A stretch of DNA of 33,410 nucleotides, taken from contig DASWJH010000016.1 of assembly GCA_036397255.1 (NCBI GenBank), positions 1 to 33,410 on the forward strand, given 5' to 3'. The position numbers were made by a program, and so were the translations under genes. The stretch is from Nitrospiria bacterium. Its GTDB lineage: Bacteria; Nitrospirota; Nitrospiria; DASWJH01. The notes under the pieces are model-generated. The model was not told where the DNA came from. It worked only from the letters and a program-made list of their open reading frames with translations, and did no database searches. This document shows, in pieces, positions 6,315 to 33,410 of this stretch; position 1 is the stretch's first letter, and the number at the start of each line of letters is the position of its first letter.

Positions 6315-7301
6315 TTAAAGTTCCATTGCCCCTTTCACTTCTTTCATGGTTTCACTGGCTTTTTGAGATGCAAAGAGGGAACCCTCATTAAGGATTTCCT
6401 TCAGTTGTTTATCATCTTTTTCCCATTTTTTACGGGATTCCCACACAGGAGCCAATTCTTCCGCCAAATGGTCTGCAACAATTTTTTTGCAGTCTATACA
6501 TCCAATTCCCGCAGTCCTGCAGCCTTGGTCAACCTCTTTGATCTCTTCCAAAGTTGAATAGGTTTGGTGAAAGGAAAAAACAGGACACACCTCGGGATTC
6601 CCGGGATCTGTTCGGCGAACACGCTGGGGATCGGTCACCATAGTTTTTAATTTTTCCCGAAGAACTTTCTCGGAATCGGACAAATAAATAGCGTTATTAT
6701 AACTTTTGCTCATTTTCCGACCATCGGTCCCTAACATTTTCGGCGTTTTTGTGAGTAAGGCCTCCGGTTCAAGAAAAACCGGTTTATAAATATCATTGAA
6801 TCGTCTCGCAATTTCCCGAGTTAATTCCAAATGGGGAAGTTGATCTATTCCCACCGGAACATAATCCGCTCGGTAAATTAAAATATCAGAAGCCTGAAGA
6901 ACAGGGTACCCTAAAAAACCGTAGGTAGACAAATCCCGATGCACCAACTGTTGCTGTTGTTCCTTATAGGTCGGATTTCGTTCCAGCCAAGGAAGCGGAA
7001 CAATCATTGAGAGAAGCAGATGAAGAACCGCGTGATCGGGAACCTTAGATTGAAGAAAAATTGTAGATTTTTCAGGATCCAAACCCACGCTCAACCAATC
7101 GATGAGCATTTGTTTGGATAGTTCTCTAATCTGCCCTGTTTCTTTGTAATTGGTCGAAACCGCATGCCAATCGGCAATAAAAAAGTAGGCATCATAAGTT
7201 TCTTGGAGTTCTTTCCAATTTGACAATGCCCCTACAAAATTCCCCAAATGAAGTTTTCCACTTGGTTGCATTCCACTGAGCACCCTTTTTTTCCTTTTCA
7301 T
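6315..7301 (-). CDS. trpS: Tryptophanyl-tRNA synthetase
   Basis: Charges tRNA-Trp with tryptophan in the cytoplasm; class Ic aminoacyl-tRNA synthetase. The HIGH-type motif appears as SGKLHLGN and the KMSKS loop as GRKMSKSYNN. Other family segments are FIADWHAVSTNY, LLSMIVPLPWLERNPTYKEQ and YPVLQASDILIYRADYVPVGIDQLPHLELTREIARRFN. I start it at ATG 7301 (328 residues, MKRKKRVLSGMQPSG), the usual family beginning, with GGGGCGG upstream. A GTG eight codons earlier (7325) is open but has no ribosome binding site. It carries a C-terminal GCIDCKK stretch seen in many bacterial TrpS. It follows the M50 protease gene closely, suggesting one operon. Confidence 0.96.
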   Translation of the reverse strand: MKRKKRVLSGMQPSGKLHLGNFVGALSNWKELQETYDAYFFIADWHAVSTNYKETGQIRELSKQMLIDWLSVGLDPEKSTIFLQSKVPDHAVLHLLLSMIVPLPWLERNPTYKEQQQQLVHRDLSTYGFLGYPVLQASDILIYRADYVPVGIDQLPHLELTREIARRFNDIYKPVFLEPEALLTKTPKMLGTDGRKMSKSYNNAIYLSDSEKVLREKLKTMVTDPQRVRRTDPGNPEVCPVFSFHQTYSTLEEIKEVDQGCRTAGIGCIDCKKIVADHLAEELAPVWESRKKWEKDDKQLKEILNEGSLFASQKASETMKEVKGAMEL

Positions 7302-7335
7302 CAAAACCGCCCCGATTTCTGACACAGATGGACTT

Positions 7336-8037
7336 CTATATTCGAACCCCTAATATCCCCGTTGTTATGCCTTGAAGAAGGGGATGGAAAATATGGGACA
7401 TAATTCCAAAAGGATTCATGAAAACCAGAAACATTACGATCAAAAAACCAAATGGTTCCAACTGGCTTAAAAACCGGGATTGGGCATCGGGAAGCAAACC
7501 CACCATGACCCTTCCCCCATCTAACGGAGGAATTGGAATCATATTAAAAAGTGCTAACAGGACATTCCACTTAACCCCGGCAATCAACATGAGTAATAGG
7601 GGAACCAAAATAGAAGCAGTTAACCCATTCCCAAATTGACTTGAGGAAGAGAGGGTGTGTGCGGGAAAAAAATAAAGGATAACCCGAAAAAGAATTCCGC
7701 ATGCCAATGCCAGAAGAAGATTCACTCCAGGACCCGCACCTGCCACATAAACCATATCCCGCTTGGGGTGCCTTAGATTAGCAAAATTGACCGGGACCGG
7801 TTTGGCATATCCAATGACAAAGCCGGTGCTGATAAATAAAAAAATGGGAATTAGAATGGTTCCGAAGATATCAATGTGTGCAATGGGATTTAAGGTAAGA
7901 CGCCCGAGGTGCTTCGCTGTGGGATCACCCAGTTTATTGGCCACAAACCCATGGGCCGCTTCATGCAGTGTAATGGCCAGTAAAACAGGAATAGAAATAA
8001 TACTAATTTGCCGAATAATTTCAGGCAGGTCATTCAC
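7336..8037 (-). CDS. Site-2 protease family (M50B) integral membrane metalloprotease
   Basis: Polytopic membrane protein of 233 residues, in the compact YwhC-like branch of site-2 proteases without PDZ domains. The zinc motif HExxH appears as LHEAAHGF in the first membrane segment. The third ligand motif is PIPPLDGGRV near residue 175, and the conserved NP-I-AHID segment lies between. Four to five hydrophobic stretches are visible. The start is a GTG whose last two bases overlap the stop of pycB (GTGA, 8034-8037), with GCGGGG upstream, so translation is probably coupled. The substrate is unknown; in many genomes this gene precedes trpS and scpAB. Confidence 0.9.
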   Translation of the reverse strand: MNDLPEIIRQISIISIPVLLAITLHEAAHGFVANKLGDPTAKHLGRLTLNPIAHIDIFGTILIPIFLFISTGFVIGYAKPVPVNFANLRHPKRDMVYVAGAGPGVNLLLALACGILFRVILYFFPAHTLSSSSQFGNGLTASILVPLLLMLIAGVKWNVLLALFNMIPIPPLDGGRVMVGLLPDAQSRFLSQLEPFGFLIVMFLVFMNPFGIMSHIFHPLLQGITTGILGVRI

Positions 8038-13398: not shown

Positions 13399-13476
13399 AA
13401 CTTTCATTTTGAACTATTTTAAATAAACAGGGTGTTTTGGAGAAGAGAAAACCCTCTCACCATAAAAACCCAAAAT

Positions 13477-14355
13477 ATGAACTCACAAATAGAACAATTC
13501 CTCACCTATCTCTTGGTTGAAAAAGGGCTTTCCAAGAACACCATTGAAGCCTACGACCGTGACCTTGCGAGTTTTTTTGAACACTCAAAAAAAAACAAAT
13601 TTAAGACCATTCACACCGAAAACATTATATCATTTCTAAAGGAACTTCGGATCAAAGGCAATTCTCCCTCGACTCAAGCAAGAAAACTCTCCTCTTTAAG
13701 AACCTTTTACCGTTTCCTGGTAGGAGAGGGAAATATAAAAACAGATCCCACGCTTCCTTTGAACTCTCCTAAAAAATGGGTCAAACTTCCCCATGTGCTT
13801 ACGGTCAAGGAAATGGAGCGCTTGCTTGAAATCCAGAAACAAAAAGGGCCCCAAGGCATCCGGGATAATGCATTGCTAGAACTTTTATATGCCACAGGGA
13901 TCCGGGTAACTGAACTGGTCACCTTAAAACTCCAAAACATCCAATGGGAAATGAGTTACCTCACCACATTTGGAAAGGGTTTAAAAGAGCGGATCATCCC
14001 CCTCAGCCACCCTGCACTAACAAAGGTGGAGACGTATCTTCTGGAGGCCAGGCCCCTTCTTTTAATGAAAAAAAAATCGGACTTCCTTTTCCTTAACAGG
14101 AGGGGTCAATCGATGACCCGTCAGTATGTATGGCAATTATTAAAGCGCTATGCAAAATCAGCGGAAATCACAAAACCCATTTCCCCCCACACACTGCGGC
14201 ACTCTTTTGCAAGTCATTTATTGGAGCACGGCGCAGATTTAAGATCCGTACAACAACTCTTGGGGCATGCCGATATATCAACCACCCAAATTTATACCCA
14301 CGTGACCCGAGATCATTTAAAAAAAATTCACCGCCTGTATCATCCCAGACCTTAA
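13477..14355 (+). CDS. xerD: Tyrosine recombinase XerD-like
   Basis: Site-specific recombinase that would resolve chromosome dimers at dif together with XerC. With the start at ATG 13477 (MNSQIEQFLTYL) it has 292 residues, close to E. coli XerD. An upstream GTG at 13432 is open but adds a non-family tail. The N-terminal SAM-like DNA-binding domain (EKGLSKNTIEAYDRDLASF...SSLRTFYRFL) precedes the catalytic domain. All catalytic residues are present: R143 (ATGIR), K167 (FGKGLKER), H238 and R241 (HTLRH), H264 (LGHADIS) and the nucleophile Y273 (TQIYTHV). XerC versus XerD cannot be settled by eye. No ribosome binding site is obvious. The surroundings are housekeeping genes, which argues against a mobile-element integrase. 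Confidence 0.92.
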   Translation: MNSQIEQFLTYLLVEKGLSKNTIEAYDRDLASFFEHSKKNKFKTIHTENIISFLKELRIKGNSPSTQARKLSSLRTFYRFLVGEGNIKTDPTLPLNSPKKWVKLPHVLTVKEMERLLEIQKQKGPQGIRDNALLELLYATGIRVTELVTLKLQNIQWEMSYLTTFGKGLKERIIPLSHPALTKVETYLLEARPLLLMKKKSDFLFLNRRGQSMTRQYVWQLLKRYAKSAEITKPISPHTLRHSFASHLLEHGADLRSVQQLLGHADISTTQIYTHVTRDHLKKIHRLYHPRP

Positions 14356-26316: not shown

Positions 26317-27096
26317 CTAAAACCGGTAAGTCACGCCGGTGTTTACAAAAACATCCGGACTGGCGTCTGTTAAACCAAATCCAAATGATCCGTCAATCGA
26401 TAAGGCGGAAATCAATTGATATAAAGCCCCAAACTGAACCGCTACTGAATCCGTAGGTTGACTGGGATTGCGCTGGGTCTCTCCTGCAAGCTCGGCAATG
26501 ACATGTAAGGGATCAATCACGGTTAAAATATCAAAAGCCAGGGAATATTGAAATACATCTCTAAACGACTGATTATTCGGATTCCCGGTTAAAACATACC
26601 CCAAATTCAGATGCACCAGAATAGGAAAAAACTCCTTACTGGCAATTCCAATCAACCCTACATCGGGTTCGCCAGTACATTCAGGGCTCAAGTTTTTACT
26701 ACGATCACAGGAAGGAAATTTTATAAAAAGTTGTGACGACAGCGACAGCGGGTTGGCTTCCCTTCCTTTCAAAAACCGAAGCTTTGATTTAATTCGAATA
26801 TCTCCAATGCCATCGGATGAATCCCTCCCCGATTTAAAAATAACTGGAACCGAGACACCAAAATCCAAATTATTGATGACCCCCTGAGTAAAATCCACCA
26901 CCCAAGGAAACCTCCGGTCATCGGAATCATACCGTTGAAAGGATATACCTGTTTCCAGTCTGGACTTTCCCCTTTCTATGGGAATGGCATCTTCGGTTAT
27001 AAAGAATGGACGAACCGCAGAGGATGTAGAAGGGGTTAATGGAAAAAAACAAAGGAAAACAAAAAAAACAAAGCCGGGTTTCAGACGGAGTTTCAC
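26317..27096 (-). CDS. Outer-membrane beta-barrel protein, transporter-like
   Basis: A 259-residue exported protein. The signal peptide is FVFFVFLCFFPLTPSTSSA, then RPFFITEDAIPIERGKSRLETG, which resembles the start of the MetA-pathway phenol-degradation/outer-membrane transporter-like family. Alternating polar and hydrophobic strands continue to a C-terminal YRF, the aromatic end used for barrel insertion. Two cysteines (SCDRSKNLSPECTG) may form a loop disulphide. The start is GTG 27096 with AGGA eight bases before it. A good promoter lies about 50 bases upstream. The substrate is not indicated by the sequence. Confidence 0.75.
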   Translation of the reverse strand: MKLRLKPGFVFFVFLCFFPLTPSTSSAVRPFFITEDAIPIERGKSRLETGISFQRYDSDDRRFPWVVDFTQGVINNLDFGVSVPVIFKSGRDSSDGIGDIRIKSKLRFLKGREANPLSLSSQLFIKFPSCDRSKNLSPECTGEPDVGLIGIASKEFFPILVHLNLGYVLTGNPNNQSFRDVFQYSLAFDILTVIDPLHVIAELAGETQRNPSQPTDSVAVQFGALYQLISALSIDGSFGFGLTDASPDVFVNTGVTYRF

Positions 27097-27550: not shown

Positions 27551-28270
27551 ATGTTCTTGGGTTCTGTTTTTAAAAGAAAACTTAAAAACCCTGCCCTTTT
27601 TCTGGTTATAACCACCATTGCCTTACCTTTAATTTTTACAGGGTCAATTTCCTTCGCAAGCCATCCCATTTCTAGCGCTTCCAAAACCTTTGAACCCTGG
27701 AGGGTTTTTCTTCATAAAATGGATCACCGACTTTCCGGTGAAATCTTATATTTTGTTTCGGAGCTTCCATCGAATTATTATTCCAATTTCACCACTGACC
27801 CTTCAAATAGATCTCCCCTCTCCCCGGTGTTTAGCTTAGAACGGGACCGTGAATTAAACCTAAGCGCCCAGGCGGCCATCCAAAGCACGGTAATTAAAAC
27901 GCTCAACGATCTCCATTGGGTTGCAATAGCCAAAGGGTACCTGGAAGGCCTTACCCATGCCCGCCTGACGATATCCAATGGGATCTCTTTTCAGGGACCA
28001 TCACTGGGAAAATTGAATCAGGATTTAAATCCAAATTCTCCCCCACTTCTGGTCAGTGATTTTTCATTAACCCAGTTTCCCACCCCGGGTTTAGCAATCC
28101 GAACCGCACATCAGCTTTTTGAAACAAGGTTAAACTACATTCCACTCAATGAATTTCCCCTGACGGTCAGGGTGGAACGTTCGTTCATTCTAAAATCAAA
28201 GATCGGTCTCAATTTTAGATGGTCGGAGGAACAGAACGACATTCTCACCACGTTTCAAATGCCTTTCTAA
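27551..28270 (+). CDS. Exported protein of unknown function
   Basis: I do not recognise this 239-residue protein. GGAGG lies seven bases before ATG 27551. A basic N-terminus and hydrophobic stretch (NPALFLVITTIALPLIFTGSISFASHP) read as a signal peptide. The mature part has no cysteines and no membrane helices. Its C-terminal third has alternating strands (LTVRVERSFILKSKIGLNFRWSEEQNDILTTFQMPF) and an aromatic last residue, which could mean outer-membrane association. It is the last gene before the tRNA-Gly fragment and is divergent from the barrel gene. Confidence 0.75.
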   Translation: MFLGSVFKRKLKNPALFLVITTIALPLIFTGSISFASHPISSASKTFEPWRVFLHKMDHRLSGEILYFVSELPSNYYSNFTTDPSNRSPLSPVFSLERDRELNLSAQAAIQSTVIKTLNDLHWVAIAKGYLEGLTHARLTISNGISFQGPSLGKLNQDLNPNSPPLLVSDFSLTQFPTPGLAIRTAHQLFETRLNYIPLNEFPLTVRVERSFILKSKIGLNFRWSEEQNDILTTFQMPF

Positions 28271-28406: not shown

Positions 28407-28428
28407 TGGAGCGGGCTACGGGAATCGA
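28407..28428 (-). other. 3' end of tRNA-Gly without its body: candidate integration (att) site
   Basis: On the minus strand these 22 bases begin TCGATTCCC and end GCCCGCTCCA. They match the end of bacterial tRNA-Gly: most of the T loop, the T-stem 3' strand CCCGT, the acceptor 3' strand AGCCCGC, discriminator T and encoded CCA. The upstream bases do not continue as a tRNA. A bare 3' fragment is what remains at the far end of an element that integrated into a tRNA gene. The orientation places the element to the right, from about 28429, with the intact tRNA-Gly expected beyond the window. Confidence 0.7.
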
Positions 28429-28443
28429 TCAACAAATCGTAAC

Positions 28444-28466
28444 AAAAAAATTCCTTTTTAAGGATT
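28444..28466 (-). terminator. Intrinsic terminator after trmO
   Basis: On the minus strand TCCTT pairs with AAGGA around an AAA loop, followed by A and seven T (28444-28450). The stem starts two bases past the trmO stop codon. The stem is short, but the T tract is good. Confidence 0.5.
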
Positions 28467-28467
28467 C

Positions 28468-28905
28468 CTACTTTTGATCTAGCCAACCCTGTTGCGCGTC
28501 GGGGCGGCTGTTGAAATGCTTAAGGTAGGGTTTTATATCCAAGACCGGCGTTTTATCCAACACATCCACCCCACGGACAAACAGTCTCCTCCCCTCACGC
28601 TTGAGAAGCTTTACCGTCAGAATGCCGATGGCGTTCGGGCGATGGGGAGACCGGGTGGCAAATACCCCTTTCTCCTTCTTTTGCATCGGCGGGATCACTT
28701 TCAGTGGTTTGACCCTGCTCAGGTGAAAGGCGAAAATAACCAGAAGATGTGAAAACCCGTCGATGTCTATCAGCCCCTCTTCATAGACAGGGTCAATCTC
28801 AATGATTCCCTCTGCCGTGGGCGCTTCACCCAGACTCTTTGGAATGTTCTCCAAAGTCTTATAAGGGGTGTGAATGACCCCAATGGGAGTATAAGTGAAA
28901 TCCAT
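28468..28905 (-). CDS. trmO: TrmO-family tRNA (N6-threonylcarbamoyladenosine-37) methyltransferase
   Basis: SAM-dependent enzyme that methylates t6A at position 37 of certain tRNAs; beta-barrel family formerly called YaeB/VirR. At 145 residues it is the short, single-domain form. Family segments are PIGVIHTPYKTLENIP, AEGIIEIDPVYEEGL, DIDGFSHLLVIFAFH, the signature FATRSPHRPNAIGI and DKTPVLDIKPYLKHF. Its ATG follows directly on the stop of the preceding gene (TAAATG), so translation is probably coupled. G+C content is higher than in the genes to the left. It is the last gene of a three-gene leftward operon inside the proposed island. Several archaeal and metal-linked homologues exist, so the exact tRNA target is open. 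Confidence 0.88.
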   Translation of the reverse strand: MDFTYTPIGVIHTPYKTLENIPKSLGEAPTAEGIIEIDPVYEEGLIDIDGFSHLLVIFAFHLSRVKPLKVIPPMQKKEKGVFATRSPHRPNAIGILTVKLLKREGRRLFVRGVDVLDKTPVLDIKPYLKHFNSRPDAQQGWLDQK

Positions 28906-29523
28906 TTATTCCTGAAAGGCCTCCAAAAACCGGCGTAATCCTAATTTGGCACCGCCGATCCACGGCTCCCCGTGAGCAAATAGAAGATGATCGAATTCCC
29001 GCTCCAGGTGTTTGAAAAAAATGTGATGCAGACCTTTCTTGACGGCTTTCGGATTCTCTCCCATCAGCGCATCAGGCACGAAACCCAGCTCACCATCATA
29101 TCGAACGAGGGCATCGCCGATTGCCAAGATACCTCCGGACTGAGGAAAATAAAATGCCGTCTCCTCCGGACACAGCACGCCGACTTCCAGTGCCAAGACA
29201 TCTCCCGGGAGCCGAACCCCGTGATTGAAACCATGCACTTTCTGTTTTTTGGAAAATTCATGGAGCCCGGTACTGTGACACCAAACCTTTGCTCCAAAGG
29301 AAGCAATAAACCGATTGCTGTTTCGATAATGAAGTCTGTTGGTCAAAAAAATGTGTTTAGGAGGGTTTTGATTTTTAAACCAGGCCATTTCTTCATTCGG
29401 AACCCTCGGGTCGATCAGCACAGCAGGATCGGTGGTACAAAAGTAGTATGAGTGAACATCTTCCTCGATTTCTTCATGGAAAGTCACCCAGTGGAACACG
29501 CCGGGGAGAATTTCCTTAATCAT
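28906..29523 (-). CDS. Metallo-beta-lactamase-fold protein lacking the HxHxDH motif
   Basis: A 205-residue protein with the outline of the metallo-beta-lactamase superfamily: strand VLIDPRVP, the IFLTN strand where the metal motif normally starts, GGILAIGDALVRY and LLFAHGEPWIGGA. The expected T-H-x-H-x-D-H is TNRLHYR at 61-67, so nearly all first-site ligands are gone. The later aspartate (GDA) and histidine (AHGEP) remain. It may be non-catalytic, use a different metal arrangement, or act by binding. GGGAAAGG lies upstream of ATG 29523. It stands 40 bases after the acetolactate-synthase-type gene and abuts trmO. Confidence 0.7.
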   Translation of the reverse strand: MIKEILPGVFHWVTFHEEIEEDVHSYYFCTTDPAVLIDPRVPNEEMAWFKNQNPPKHIFLTNRLHYRNSNRFIASFGAKVWCHSTGLHEFSKKQKVHGFNHGVRLPGDVLALEVGVLCPEETAFYFPQSGGILAIGDALVRYDGELGFVPDALMGENPKAVKKGLHHIFFKHLEREFDHLLFAHGEPWIGGAKLGLRRFLEAFQE

Positions 29524-29563
29524 TTGCCAGCCTTTCCCATGGGATCATTTTTTTCCGTGATGA

Positions 29564-31198
29564 TTACGATGGGCAGATTAACCGCCCCAAACGCTCCATG
29601 AGATGGGAGTTTTCCGAATAATCGACCGGTACGTCGATGACCGATGGCACCTTGAGGGCCAACGCTTCTTTCAGGACAGGTGCCAATTCCGAGGCTGCGC
29701 CGATGCGAAACCCTCTGGCCCCATAGGACTCGGCGAGCTTGACAAAGTCGGGATTCGTTAGCTCGGTGGCAAACGATCCGCCGAAGCGTTGTTTCTGTTT
29801 CCATCGGATCAAACCAAAACCGTTATCGTTGAAGATCAAGGTTACGAAGGCAATCCCCAGCCGGCAAGCCGTTTCCAATTCCGCGCAGTTCATTAGAAAC
29901 CCCCCGTCCCCGCATACCGCCAGGACGTTGCGGTTCGGATGAACCAGTTTAGCGGCAACCGCCCCCGGCAGAGCGATCCCCATGGCGGCAAACCCGTTGG
30001 AGATGATCACCGTATTGGGCAGATAGGCAGGAAAGAGCCGGGCGATCCATATCTTGTGGGCCCCCACATCGCTGATCAGAATATCTTCTCGACCAAGGGC
30101 CCGGCGGATGTCACGGATGATCCGTTGGGGTTTGAGGGGAAACCTGTCTGAGGCGCTGATGGCCTCATATTCCTCAACCAGATAGGCACGGAGCGTCTTG
30201 TTGTAGGTTATCTCTTTCCGGCCCTTCACCTCCCCGGCCAATCGCTCAAAGGTCTCCCGAACGTCCGCCACGATCTCCACATTGGCCTGATAGCAGCCAT
30301 CCACCTCTCCTGGGGTAAAATCGATATGGACGATAGGCTTCTTTCCATCGGGATTCCAGTGGCGCGGGGCGTATTCCACGGGGTCATACCCGGCGGCGAT
30401 AATCAGATCGGCTCGATCGAACCCGCAGGAGACATAGTCCTGGGCCTGGAGCCCGATGGTAAGCAACGACAACTCATGATTCCAGGGCATGACCCCTTTG
30501 GCCATGAAAGTGTTCGCCACCGGGATTCCTGTTTTCTGAGAAAACTGAAGTAGGGCATCGGCGGCATGCCCACGCACCACCCCGTTGCCGGCCAGAATCA
30601 GGGGATAACGGGCACGGTCGATAAGATCGGCAGCGGCCTTCACAGCCGCTCCGTCGGGGGAGGGCCGGCGTGTGTGCGATGACAACAGCGGGGCACCCTG
30701 AACATCCATTTCCGCCACATCCTCCGGTAACGCGATATGGCAGGCCCCCGGCTTTTCCGCCTGGGCAATCTTGAACGCCTTCCGCACCACTTCGGGAATG
30801 GTCGATGCCCGTTCGACGCGGGTGTTCCATTTGGTCAGGGGGGCGAAGAAACGAATAGTATCGACATATTGATGGGACTCTTTGTGGATCTGTTCAAGCC
30901 TCGCCTGAGCCGTGATAGCCACCAACGGAGCGTGGTCAAGATTGGCATCGGCCACACCTGTGGCAAGATTGGTGGCGCCGGGACCCAGCGTGGAGAGGCA
31001 AACCCCCGCTCGCCCGGTCAGGCGCCCATAGAGATCGGCCATAAACGCAGCGCCCTGCTCATGCCGCGTCGGGACGAACGTGATGCTGGATGAACGCAAC
31101 GATTCGAGCAGGTCCAGGTTCTCTTCTCCCGGAAGGCCGAAGATGTACTTTACCCCTTCGCGCTCCAAACATTTCACAAACAGGTCCGAGGCTTTCAT
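29564..31198 (-). CDS. Acetolactate-synthase-type thiamine-diphosphate enzyme (AlsS-like)
   Basis: Joins two pyruvates to acetolactate in related enzymes. The 544 residues contain three domains: N-terminal pyrimidine-binding with the catalytic glutamate in TRHEQGAAFMADLYGRL, a central nucleotide-fold domain (ADLIDRARYPLILAGNGVV), and a C-terminal ThDP-binding domain with GDGGFLMN...NDNGFG. GPGATNLATGVADANLDHAPLVAITAQ and SNGFAAMGIALPGAVAAKL are typical. No ilvN-type regulatory subunit or acetolactate decarboxylase is nearby, which fits the single-subunit catabolic type, but other ThDP enzymes cannot be excluded. One 60-base line (30541-30600) has 37 G+C, far above most of the window. AAGG lies before ATG 31198. 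Confidence 0.88.
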   Translation of the reverse strand: MKASDLFVKCLEREGVKYIFGLPGEENLDLLESLRSSSITFVPTRHEQGAAFMADLYGRLTGRAGVCLSTLGPGATNLATGVADANLDHAPLVAITAQARLEQIHKESHQYVDTIRFFAPLTKWNTRVERASTIPEVVRKAFKIAQAEKPGACHIALPEDVAEMDVQGAPLLSSHTRRPSPDGAAVKAAADLIDRARYPLILAGNGVVRGHAADALLQFSQKTGIPVANTFMAKGVMPWNHELSLLTIGLQAQDYVSCGFDRADLIIAAGYDPVEYAPRHWNPDGKKPIVHIDFTPGEVDGCYQANVEIVADVRETFERLAGEVKGRKEITYNKTLRAYLVEEYEAISASDRFPLKPQRIIRDIRRALGREDILISDVGAHKIWIARLFPAYLPNTVIISNGFAAMGIALPGAVAAKLVHPNRNVLAVCGDGGFLMNCAELETACRLGIAFVTLIFNDNGFGLIRWKQKQRFGGSFATELTNPDFVKLAESYGARGFRIGAASELAPVLKEALALKVPSVIDVPVDYSENSHLMERLGRLICPS

Positions 31199-31405
31199 CG
31201 GATCGGCCTTTCAACGGTGGTGTGGTATCAGAAAACGATTATAGCTTCCCTACCGATGAACACAAATCAGTCGGAATTGGCAGGCTTCGGGAAAGTAATC
31301 TCATATGGTTAATCAGGAAACCAGATGCCCTGAGCCTGGAGAACTGCTTTCCCATTGGTACACATGAAGATCATTCGGCATTGTAATATAGCATCGTTTG
31401 GGCAC

Positions 31406-31425
31406 AATTGAAAATCAATTCAATT
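31406..31425. repeat. 7-bp inverted repeat in the gap between DUF488 and the acetolactate-synthase gene
   Basis: AATTGAA (31406-31412) and TTCAATT (31419-31425) are separated by AATCAA. The repeat lies about 60 bases beyond the 3' end of the leftward DUF488 gene and 208 bases upstream of the acetolactate-synthase-type start. It could be a terminator without a T tract or an operator. Confidence 0.4.
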
Positions 31426-31484
31426 TGCACATATAGATATAAGTTTACCTCCAATGGGAACCCTTCCTTTGCCAGAGTCAATCC

Positions 31485-31838
31485 CTAAATTTTCAAACCC
31501 GTAATGACCTCCTTCAAGGCAACTGCGTTATTGTGTTTTTGATCTTTAGCAGCATAAAGAAACGTAATTATTTTTTCCTCTCTTTCCAATTTTCTAACCT
31601 TTTCCAATGATTCCTTTTTATCTTTTAATTCCGTTCTGTATTTGGCCTTAAACTCATCCCATTTTTTGGGATCGTGGGAAAACCATTTTCTCAATTGGTC
31701 GGTGGGAGCAATCTCTTTTAACCAAAGGTCTATCTTAGCCTTTTCTTTTGGCAAACCCCTCGGCCAAAGTCTATCCACCAATATTCTGTACCCATCTTTC
31801 TTTTCCGGCAAAGCATAAACTCTTTTAACTTTTATCAT
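31485..31838 (-). CDS. DUF488 family protein (YeaO-like)
   Basis: A 117-residue protein with the family's [61 protein letters not shown] and a late [22 protein letters not shown]. The core has conserved R, W and H residues that may bind a nucleotide or nucleic acid; no biochemical role is established for the family. It is A+T-rich, unlike the operon to its left. The ribosome binding site is weak. A remnant of a hemerythrin gene lies immediately upstream, in the same direction. Confidence 0.85.
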
Positions 31839-31860
31839 ACAGATTAAGGTCCTCGACCTT

Positions 31861-32046
31861 TTAAACGTTTATTATCCTGGGATTAATACCTCGTCGCTGG
31901 GCCATTACCCGCCCAATGGCTTCAATCTCGGAATTCTCGAGAACTTTTTCCGCAAGCTGGAAAACTTAACCCTCTTCCATGCGGATATGGCTTTGATAAA
32001 GAATAGAGAGCGTATCGGGGGAACCGTTCGTGGTGAGAAAGTATAT
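31861..32046 (-). pseudogene. Remnant of a hemerythrin (HHE) domain protein with an internal stop
   Basis: Reading leftward in one frame gives ILYQSHIRMEEG, a stop at 31966-31968, then VFQLAEKVLENSEIEAIG and [16 protein letters not shown] with a natural stop at 31861-31863. This strongly resembles the C-terminal helix of HHE hemerythrin domains (family pattern: L-Y-x-x-H-I-R-x-E-E-x-x-V-F-P-L-A-E followed by a-I-G-x-x-M-A-x-R-R-G). One base change, CAA to TAA, explains the stop. The N-terminal part fades out near 32046, so the gene is truncated as well as interrupted. Hemerythrin domains bind oxygen or protect iron centres, for example in nitrosative stress. Confidence 0.65.
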
Positions 32047-32184
32047 TGAGATCGTTGAAACATATCAAGAGAATTGATTAGGTTTTTCCTCGGATTTGGA
32101 TTAAAAAAGGTTAGAAGAAAATAGGTTGAGGATCGAGGCAAATCCTGCAATTTGGAGGAAATTTAAGGATTGAAAAAAAGGATT

Positions 32185-32262
32185 CTGGATAGGATTTGAA
32201 CCTTTGACATCAAGCCTTGACACTTAGGGCCGAACCTGATTCTAATCCAGTATCACCCAACA
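32185..32262 (-). other. Degenerate tRNA-like sequence
   Basis: On the minus strand AAAGG-TTCAAAT-CCTAT is a good T arm (four of five pairs). Before it lies a possible anticodon arm GCCCT-AAGTGTC-AAGGC (four of five pairs), and before that CTG/CAG, which could be a D stem. The acceptor arms do not pair convincingly, and loop position 33 is A instead of U. I read it as a decayed tRNA, not a functional gene. CTGGAT (32185-32190) and ATCCAG (32245-32250) flank most of it as an inverted repeat. Confidence 0.3.
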
Positions 32263-32340
32263 TGACTTACCAGCGCCTAAAAAATCCGCTCTTCCCGGAG
32301 CAGGCGATGGGTTGCATTTTAGATCATTTGAAATGGGGTA

Positions 32341-32369
32341 TTGACAATATGACCAGAAATGGTCATAAT
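32341..32369 (+). promoter_or_regulatory. Promoter of the toxin-antitoxin pair
   Basis: TTGACA (32341-32346) is perfect and, after 17 bases, CATAAT (32364-32369) is the -10. Transcription should begin near 32376, only about three bases before the antitoxin ATG at 32379, and there is no Shine-Dalgarno, so the mRNA looks essentially leaderless. Confidence 0.65.
32349..32366. promoter_or_regulatory. Inverted-repeat operator within the toxin-antitoxin promoter
   Basis: ATGACCA (32349-32355) and TGGTCAT (32360-32366) are exact reverse complements separated by GAAA, between the -35 and -10 and overlapping the -10. A further half-site AGACCAT follows at 32371-32377. This is the usual layout for autorepression by an antitoxin or toxin-antitoxin complex. 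Confidence 0.6.
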
Positions 32370-32378
32370 TAGACCATC

Positions 32379-32648
32379 ATGAAAACACCTAAAGAATCCG
32401 CCGTACGCATCGCTGAATTCAAGGCTCATCTCAGTCAATATCTAAGGAACGTTCGTCGAGGTCATCCTTTGACGCTTCTTGACCGGGAAACGCCAATTGC
32501 AAGAATTCTTCCTTATCCCTCAGCACCAGGCAAACTGGCGATTCGAAAACCCCTCCGGTCTGCAAAGGATGTCCACCTCCCCTCTCCGATCAAGAAACAC
32601 CTCAACAGTCTAAAGGTACTCCTTGAAGAGAGGCAAAAAGAGCGGTGA
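32379..32648 (+). CDS. Phd/YefM-type antitoxin
   Basis: An 89-residue DNA-binding antitoxin. The N-terminal half (SAVRIAEFKAHLSQYLRNVRRGHPLTLLDRETPIARILPY) is the Phd/YefM fold that makes a dimer, binds the operator and continues into a toxin-binding tail (about 55-89, basic and helical). It precedes a PIN-domain toxin and overlaps it: its TGA is within GTGA at 32645-32648. The start ATG has no ribosome binding site, consistent with a leaderless transcript. Expression of the toxin is probably coupled to antitoxin translation. Confidence 0.88.
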   Translation: MKTPKESAVRIAEFKAHLSQYLRNVRRGHPLTLLDRETPIARILPYPSAPGKLAIRKPLRSAKDVHLPSPIKKHLNSLKVLLEERQKER

Positions 32649-33061
32649 ACGCTTACATGGACTCTTCGGTCATTCTGCGCCTGATCCTGGGAGAGCCAGG
32701 CCAACTGACCGGATGGGACCGTTTTGACCGGCTGGTGTGCAGTGAGCTGGCCGAACTGGAATGTCTCAGGGCGGTTGACCGGCTACGTATCAGACACCAT
32801 CTCGCTGAAGAAGAGGTTCTAACCCGCCGGGAGGCCGTTTTCCATTTACTGGAAGCCATGGAGATCGTTGGGGTGACTAGACCTATCCTCAAAAGGGCAG
32901 CGAACACCTTTCCAGTCATGATAGGAACTTTGGATGCAATCCATCTGGCAACCGCTTTGGCTTGGCAGGATGAATATGGTGCAGACCTGACCGTCGCAAC
33001 GCATGATCGAATGCTCGGACAAGCCGCAAGGGCTTTGGGCCTAAAAACCATAGGGGTATAG
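32645..33061 (+). CDS. vapC: PIN-domain toxin (VapC-like ribonuclease)
   Basis: A 138-residue PIN-domain nuclease. The start is GTG 32645, overlapping the antitoxin stop; an ATG five codons on (32657) is an alternative. The acidic site is complete: D6 (MDSSVILRL), a glutamate in CSELAELECLRA, the aspartate in GTLDAIHLATA, and the aspartate in ATHDRML. In the VapC family these bind metal and cut RNA, often tRNA or rRNA; the target here is not visible. Its base composition is G+C-richer than the flanks, suggesting transfer with the antitoxin. Confidence 0.88.
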   Translation: MNAYMDSSVILRLILGEPGQLTGWDRFDRLVCSELAELECLRAVDRLRIRHHLAEEEVLTRREAVFHLLEAMEIVGVTRPILKRAANTFPVMIGTLDAIHLATALAWQDEYGADLTVATHDRMLGQAARALGLKTIGV

Positions 33062-33410
33062 AACAAAAGGGAAATGTTTTTTCTCCACTGGGCCTTCCCC
33101 AAAAACTCCTATCCCTCTCTTAAAGCTCCTTCACTTAATCCATTCATAGTTAATGTTATCATGATCTGGTAAAGAGCCCCTGATAGTGGTCCTTAATCCA
33201 TTTTAGATTTAATAAACAAAAAAAATGTTCCCTCCACTCAGGGATTTGTTGAATCATTCAACACATTACAACAGTAGTGTCCCAACGTTGAATGGGTTGC
33301 CTGTTCTAACTTATAGAGAAATATTGGTTTTTCTTTTAAAGTGCAATTTTTCGATTTGAAATATTTCTGTCCGATAGGCCACACTTCCGCATACCTGCAG
33401 AAGGAGATGG
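33062..33410. other. Non-coding tail with a palindrome
   Basis: I see no gene in this stretch. TGTTGAAT-C-ATTCAACA (33247-33263) is a perfect 8-bp inverted repeat, and a third GTTGAAT half-site is at 33287-33293. TCCCT/AGGGA forms a small hairpin just before. AAGGAG at 33401-33406 may be the ribosome binding site of a gene starting past the window end. Confidence 0.5.

Follow-up and report, generated by a model that had tools for sequence, protein, structure and literature searches.

How did the 3′ end of a glycine tRNA gene come to lie, without the rest of that gene, on the minus strand at 28407-28428? The window analyzed here is the complete contig C16 of a Nitrospiria bacterium, 33,410 bases long, and the 22 bases in question read TCGATTCCCGTAGCCCGCTCCA. 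Integration into the 3′ end of a tRNA gene is textbook biology, and a preliminary description had proposed that these bases mark the left edge of a genomic island. We favor, with a probability of roughly 0.78, a reading in which they are the original 3′ end of tRNA-Gly(CCC), displaced by an element that integrated site-specifically in the 3′ half of the tRNA and that reaches contig C63 of the same assembly. The fragment can be described as follows.

28407..28428, minus strand: probable displaced 3′ end of tRNA-Gly(CCC), positions 55-76, keeping part of the T loop, the T-stem strand, the acceptor strand, the discriminator and CCA; single copy in the genome, two mismatches to C63:554-629.

The exact 22-mer occurs once in the assembly (3,346,016 bases, 122 contigs), and the only other matches at three or fewer mismatches are to tRNA-Gly(CCC) on C63 (two mismatches) and tRNA-Gly(TCC) on C18 (three); the third glycine tRNA, tRNA-Gly(GCC), differs at five positions. 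Alignment to tRNA-Gly(CCC) starts at position 55 and runs three nucleotides (AAA) beyond CCA, to 28404, covering 25 nt with two mismatches. No similarity is seen in this alignment upstream of position 55, and position 54 is an A in the fragment, so that the T loop is present only in part. Within the 33,410-base window ARAGORN called no tRNA gene and no Rfam tRNA match was found. Position, uniqueness and the absence of tRNA calls all agree with the earlier claim of a tRNA-Gly-like 3′ end lacking a body. The accompanying statement that it is identical in form to such an end, T loop included, is right about the tRNA-Gly 3′ end but too strong otherwise, as the T loop is incomplete and each of the three tRNA-Gly genes found in the genome differs from the 22-mer at its 3′ end. 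Two mismatches are understandable, as selection would not be expected to maintain a displaced copy.

The match is far beyond chance. In 100 shuffles of the window the 22-mer had no match even at three mismatches, and a reversed control pattern had none at up to three mismatches across the whole assembly. The 3′ ends of 28 non-glycine tRNAs compared with the window gave best matches of 5-8 mismatches, and the 22-mer was absent, at one mismatch or fewer, from 57 other genomes. Judged by its sequence, 28407-28428 is the 3′ end of a tRNA-Gly gene standing alone, without the tRNA body.

A displaced 3′ end on the minus strand predicts an element to its right and, beyond that element, an intact tRNA gene also on the minus strand. 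Since the window is the entire contig, that gene cannot lie within it. An intact tRNA-Gly(CCC) is encoded on the minus strand of C63, a 5.1-kb contig, at 554-629, its 3′ end toward the contig's left end. The preliminary description had expected an intact minus-strand tRNA-Gly with the same 22 bases further right, and had taken the lack of any matching tRNA-Gly as grounds for abandoning the island; the C63 gene matches and has the expected strand, but it is on another contig and differs at two positions. Both contigs stop in repeated DNA. C16 ends where it does because its final 139 bases belong to a repeat that four other contigs carry at 99% identity:

33272..33410, no strand assigned: repeated DNA at the contig end, probably the end of an insertion sequence; matches four other contigs at 99% identity.

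On C63, bases 1-452 are repeated on C95, start 101 bp from the tRNA and contain a putative transposase gene (read by eye). A repeat at each of these two contig ends would break an assembly. From their sequence, the two ends appear to be oriented as island flanks and are compatible with one bridging element, which is no proof of it, and the two contigs are not joined. Their linkage by a single element, its size and history, and the extent of the island are what we infer from this arrangement.

Comparison with relatives, the nearest of which belong to the same class only, provides an independent test. The other ground named for abandoning the island, conservation of 28430-33410 at this place in all close relatives, did not arise, since no closer genomes were found. 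On the minus strand the window reads tRNA-Gly 3′ end, hypothetical gene, Phenol_MetA_deg gene, other genes, L28 and recG; the two genes nearest to the fragment are:

26317..27096, minus strand: Phenol_MetA_deg family gene, chromosomal flank; its counterpart follows an intact tRNA-Gly(CCC) in four f5 relatives.
27551..28270, plus strand: hypothetical gene of the chromosomal flank, located between the tRNA end and the Phenol_MetA_deg gene.

Four genomes of family f5 (G004, G010, G019 and G025) carry an intact tRNA-Gly(CCC), then on the same strand a homologue of the Phenol_MetA_deg gene (42-49% identity), then L28, with recG seen in three of the four stretches. As order and direction of this flank are shared, these relatives therefore have an intact tRNA-Gly(CCC) where the window keeps only a 3′ end. 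The spacing between the 3′ end and the Phenol_MetA_deg gene is 1.3 kb in the window, 1.1-1.2 kb in three f5 relatives and 3.9 kb in G019. The Phenol_MetA_deg gene adjoins L28 in many other genomes of the class. For the 239-aa hypothetical flank protein f5 homologues exist, and the stretches surrounding them yielded no tRNA-Gly. The flank of the intact gene is matched in family f4, where the large TPR protein of C63 has a homologue upstream of tRNA-Gly(CCC). Each proposed flank thus has its match in one family of relatives, though both together occur in none of them. We regard the f5 synteny as the strongest new evidence, an apparent equivalent of an empty site drawn from class-level relatives of one family. 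The empty site envisaged earlier is accordingly approached by f5 genomes with an intact tRNA-Gly(CCC) beside the same flank, but only at class level and with one flank at a time.

Content after this tRNA varies among relatives. Besides the 3.9 kb preceding the flank gene in G019, G022 has about 9.7 kb of other genes ahead of its TPR-Phenol_MetA_deg flank (C14, L137), and the contig that bears its tRNA-Gly(CCC) stops about 150 bp past the tRNA (end of C62, L099); this is possibly another insertion at the same place. No convincing displaced tRNA ends were found at the f5 sites of variable content or in the TrmO region of G003. Because of this variation one might propose that the site 3′ of tRNA-Gly(CCC), beside Phenol_MetA_deg, L28 and recG, is a recurrent insertion hot spot in the class, taking up cargo of tRNA-associated elements that crosses phyla, such as TrmO and the MBL-like gene described below, although we consider so broad a role rather doubtful.

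To the right of the fragment the window carries these genes:

28468..28905, minus strand: TrmO family gene (TIGR00104, PF01980), first gene inside the proposed island; patchy in the class.
28906..29523, minus strand: MBL-fold-like gene (weak PF14597 match); closest relative found in a Dadabacteria MAG (65%).
29564..31198, minus strand: large subunit of acetolactate synthase (ALS), G+C 0.58; NF006187 above cut-off.
31485..31838, minus strand: DUF488 protein (PF04343, PF22752).
32379..33061, plus strand: Phd-like antitoxin and PIN-domain toxin pair (PF02604 just below cut-off, TIGR01552, PF01850).

A terminator scan found no terminator between the fragment and TrmO, a gene present in 16 of 197 genomes of the class, this one included, with its best match (73%) in another family. 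Two relatives of TrmO in family f4 have suggestive neighbors: in G003 (stretch 9841-12320 of L181) about 1 kb separates it from an integrase-like gene, and in G009 (9942-10576 of L182) it directly follows the 3′ end of a tRNA-Ala(GGC) gene, a hint that tRNA sites repeatedly take up TrmO. The MBL-like protein is 65% identical to its Dadabacteria counterpart versus 56% or less to any class member sampled, and no relatives of it were found in viral contigs or plasmids. ALS has a G+C of 0.58 against 0.40-0.48 at seven other loci of the genome, and in f5, where G+C is high, it has relatives with 73-74% identity. Two f5 genomes of a single genus carry ALS on the contig of tRNA-Gly(CCC), about 44-51 kb upstream of that tRNA, so the origin of ALS is ambiguous and it could be an old local gene moved closer by rearrangement; in f5, counterparts of TrmO and the MBL-like gene are missing beside ALS.

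Taken together, the first 5 kb on the right look like a mosaic with foreign or patchy affinities, which fits imported DNA. Genes of mixed origin agree with the change in gene types proposed at this point, and the prediction, from orientation, that the element lies to the right agrees with these genes, with the orientation of tRNA-Gly(CCC) on C63 and with the f5 synteny. G+C does rise as claimed, from 0.432 left of the site to 0.495 right of it, but unevenly: TrmO, the MBL-like gene, ALS and the toxin-antitoxin pair account for the increase, whereas DUF488 and the gaps are low. An excess of pseudogenes on the right was not established.

In the history that we favor, an element carrying a copy of the tRNA-Gly(CCC) 3′ end would have recombined into the 3′ half of the gene. 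The element's own 3′ end would have restored the 5′ part of the tRNA, giving the intact gene now on C63, and the native 3′ end would have been pushed to the far junction, 28407-28428. The element would then span from 28429 rightward, past the end of C16 and across a gap, to the C63 tRNA; it or its descendants would have gained insertion sequences and perhaps lost the integrase. We thus consider the element probably tRNA-targeted and the island probably decayed, with 28407-28428 as its distal edge.

The presumed agent is a tyrosine integrase, and an integrase beside the tRNA-Gly had been anticipated. Among the PF00589 matches of the assembly none is a candidate for tRNA-Gly, and the stretch beyond the C63 repeat, which begins 101 bp from the tRNA, is unassembled. 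The match in the window is a XerC/D-like gene (13432-14355). Another, on C94, lies beside frames reading as TrmFO and HslU and is probably a housekeeping gene, because the pairing of integrase and HslU recurs in G005. Matches at the starts of C31 (L042) and C3 (L040) are two integron-integrase-like genes, one of them a fragment, as judged by reading the sequences, and the match on C91 is weak and partial. The cognate integrase was presumably lost or disrupted by insertion sequences, or it is located in the gap between C16 and C63.

Two further candidates on C63 were set aside. A 14-residue open frame beside the tRNA could be the tail of an integrase but is too short to be assigned. The direct repeat GTGACTAAATGGTGACTA (480-497, L039), which lies between the contig-end repeat and the tRNA, 57 bp from the tRNA 3′ end, was considered as integrase arm sites and dropped when scans of viral sequences gave no clear support: the exact form is absent from viral contigs, and a looser form occurs in 12, mostly within unrelated coding sequence. 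At L168 a looser match is separated by about 60 bp from a tRNA-Arg 3′ end, but its orientation relative to the tRNA is the opposite one.

The same arrangement might instead be a scar of deletion or rearrangement, in which an IS-mediated deletion or inversion cut tRNA-Gly(CCC) or a duplicate of it and brought local chromosome up to the 3′ end, no integrase element ever having been involved. The repeats at both contig ends, the upstream location of ALS in the two f5 genomes mentioned above and the failure to find an integrase for the site in the assembly all speak for such an event, and because of the ALS location part of the right-hand DNA could indeed be rearranged local chromosome rather than island. 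A break in the T loop together with a clean CCA end, however, is the usual sublocation of integrases. The intact tRNA-Gly(CCC) elsewhere, oriented as an insertion predicts, likewise argues for integration, as does the lack of f5 counterparts of TrmO and the MBL-like gene beside ALS, and we consider a history of deletion or rearrangement alone unlikely.

Far less probable still is an insertion at tRNA-Gly(TCC), which would make the fragment the displaced end of the C18 gene. The tail of that tRNA differs at only three positions, but tRNA-Gly(CCC) is closer with two, and it is tRNA-Gly(CCC), not TCC, that relatives carry beside the shared flank genes; tRNA-Gly(TCC) itself sits in a Thr-Tyr-Gly-Thr cluster both here and in relatives, with another tRNA-Thr directly following it. 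That the bases match by chance, or are unrelated sequence resembling a tRNA end, has nothing in its favor beyond the absence of an exact copy among the intact tRNAs, and it is very improbable given the empty shuffles, the lack of any other non-tRNA match in 3.35 Mb and the presence of tRNA-Gly(CCC) at the corresponding place in relatives.

Displacement of the tRNA-Gly(CCC) end by an integrating element would place the site among known systems. Partial tRNA genes left by integration are well documented and widespread in prokaryotes, an example being the island PYG1 in a tRNA-Gln of Pyrococcus yayanosii (PMC9897764). As in such tRNA-targeted islands, the partial 3′ copy in the window is on the same strand as the intact copy, and foreign or patchy genes adjoin the scar where in relatives the tRNA stands alone; unlike them, the intact copy is here on another contig, no integrase was found, and the partial copy has diverged at two positions. 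The nearest relative found for the MBL-like gene of the window (65%) is in the Dadabacteria MAG nzgw197, on L134 (2037-7774). There the 3′ end of a tRNA-Ala(GGC) (7699-7774, minus strand), a target different from that in the window, is 30 bp away from the end of an integrase-like gene (6517-7668). No displaced tRNA 3′ end was seen on this contig, nor were TrmO and ALS found there. Elsewhere in the genome studied here, on C111 (L005), a 5′ partial copy lies upstream of tRNA-Gly(GCC) (779-853); it begins like that tRNA, AGAGCGGGAATAGCTCAGTGGTAGAGCG, and does not continue as a tRNA.

The site is most likely a new instance of an ordinary, well-known insertion scar. Synteny can test a bare tRNA 3′ end that was recognized without database searches, even if the opposite end of the element is unassembled. 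Here, in a lineage whose nearest genomes found belong only to the same class, the scar delimits a region that was probably acquired horizontally.
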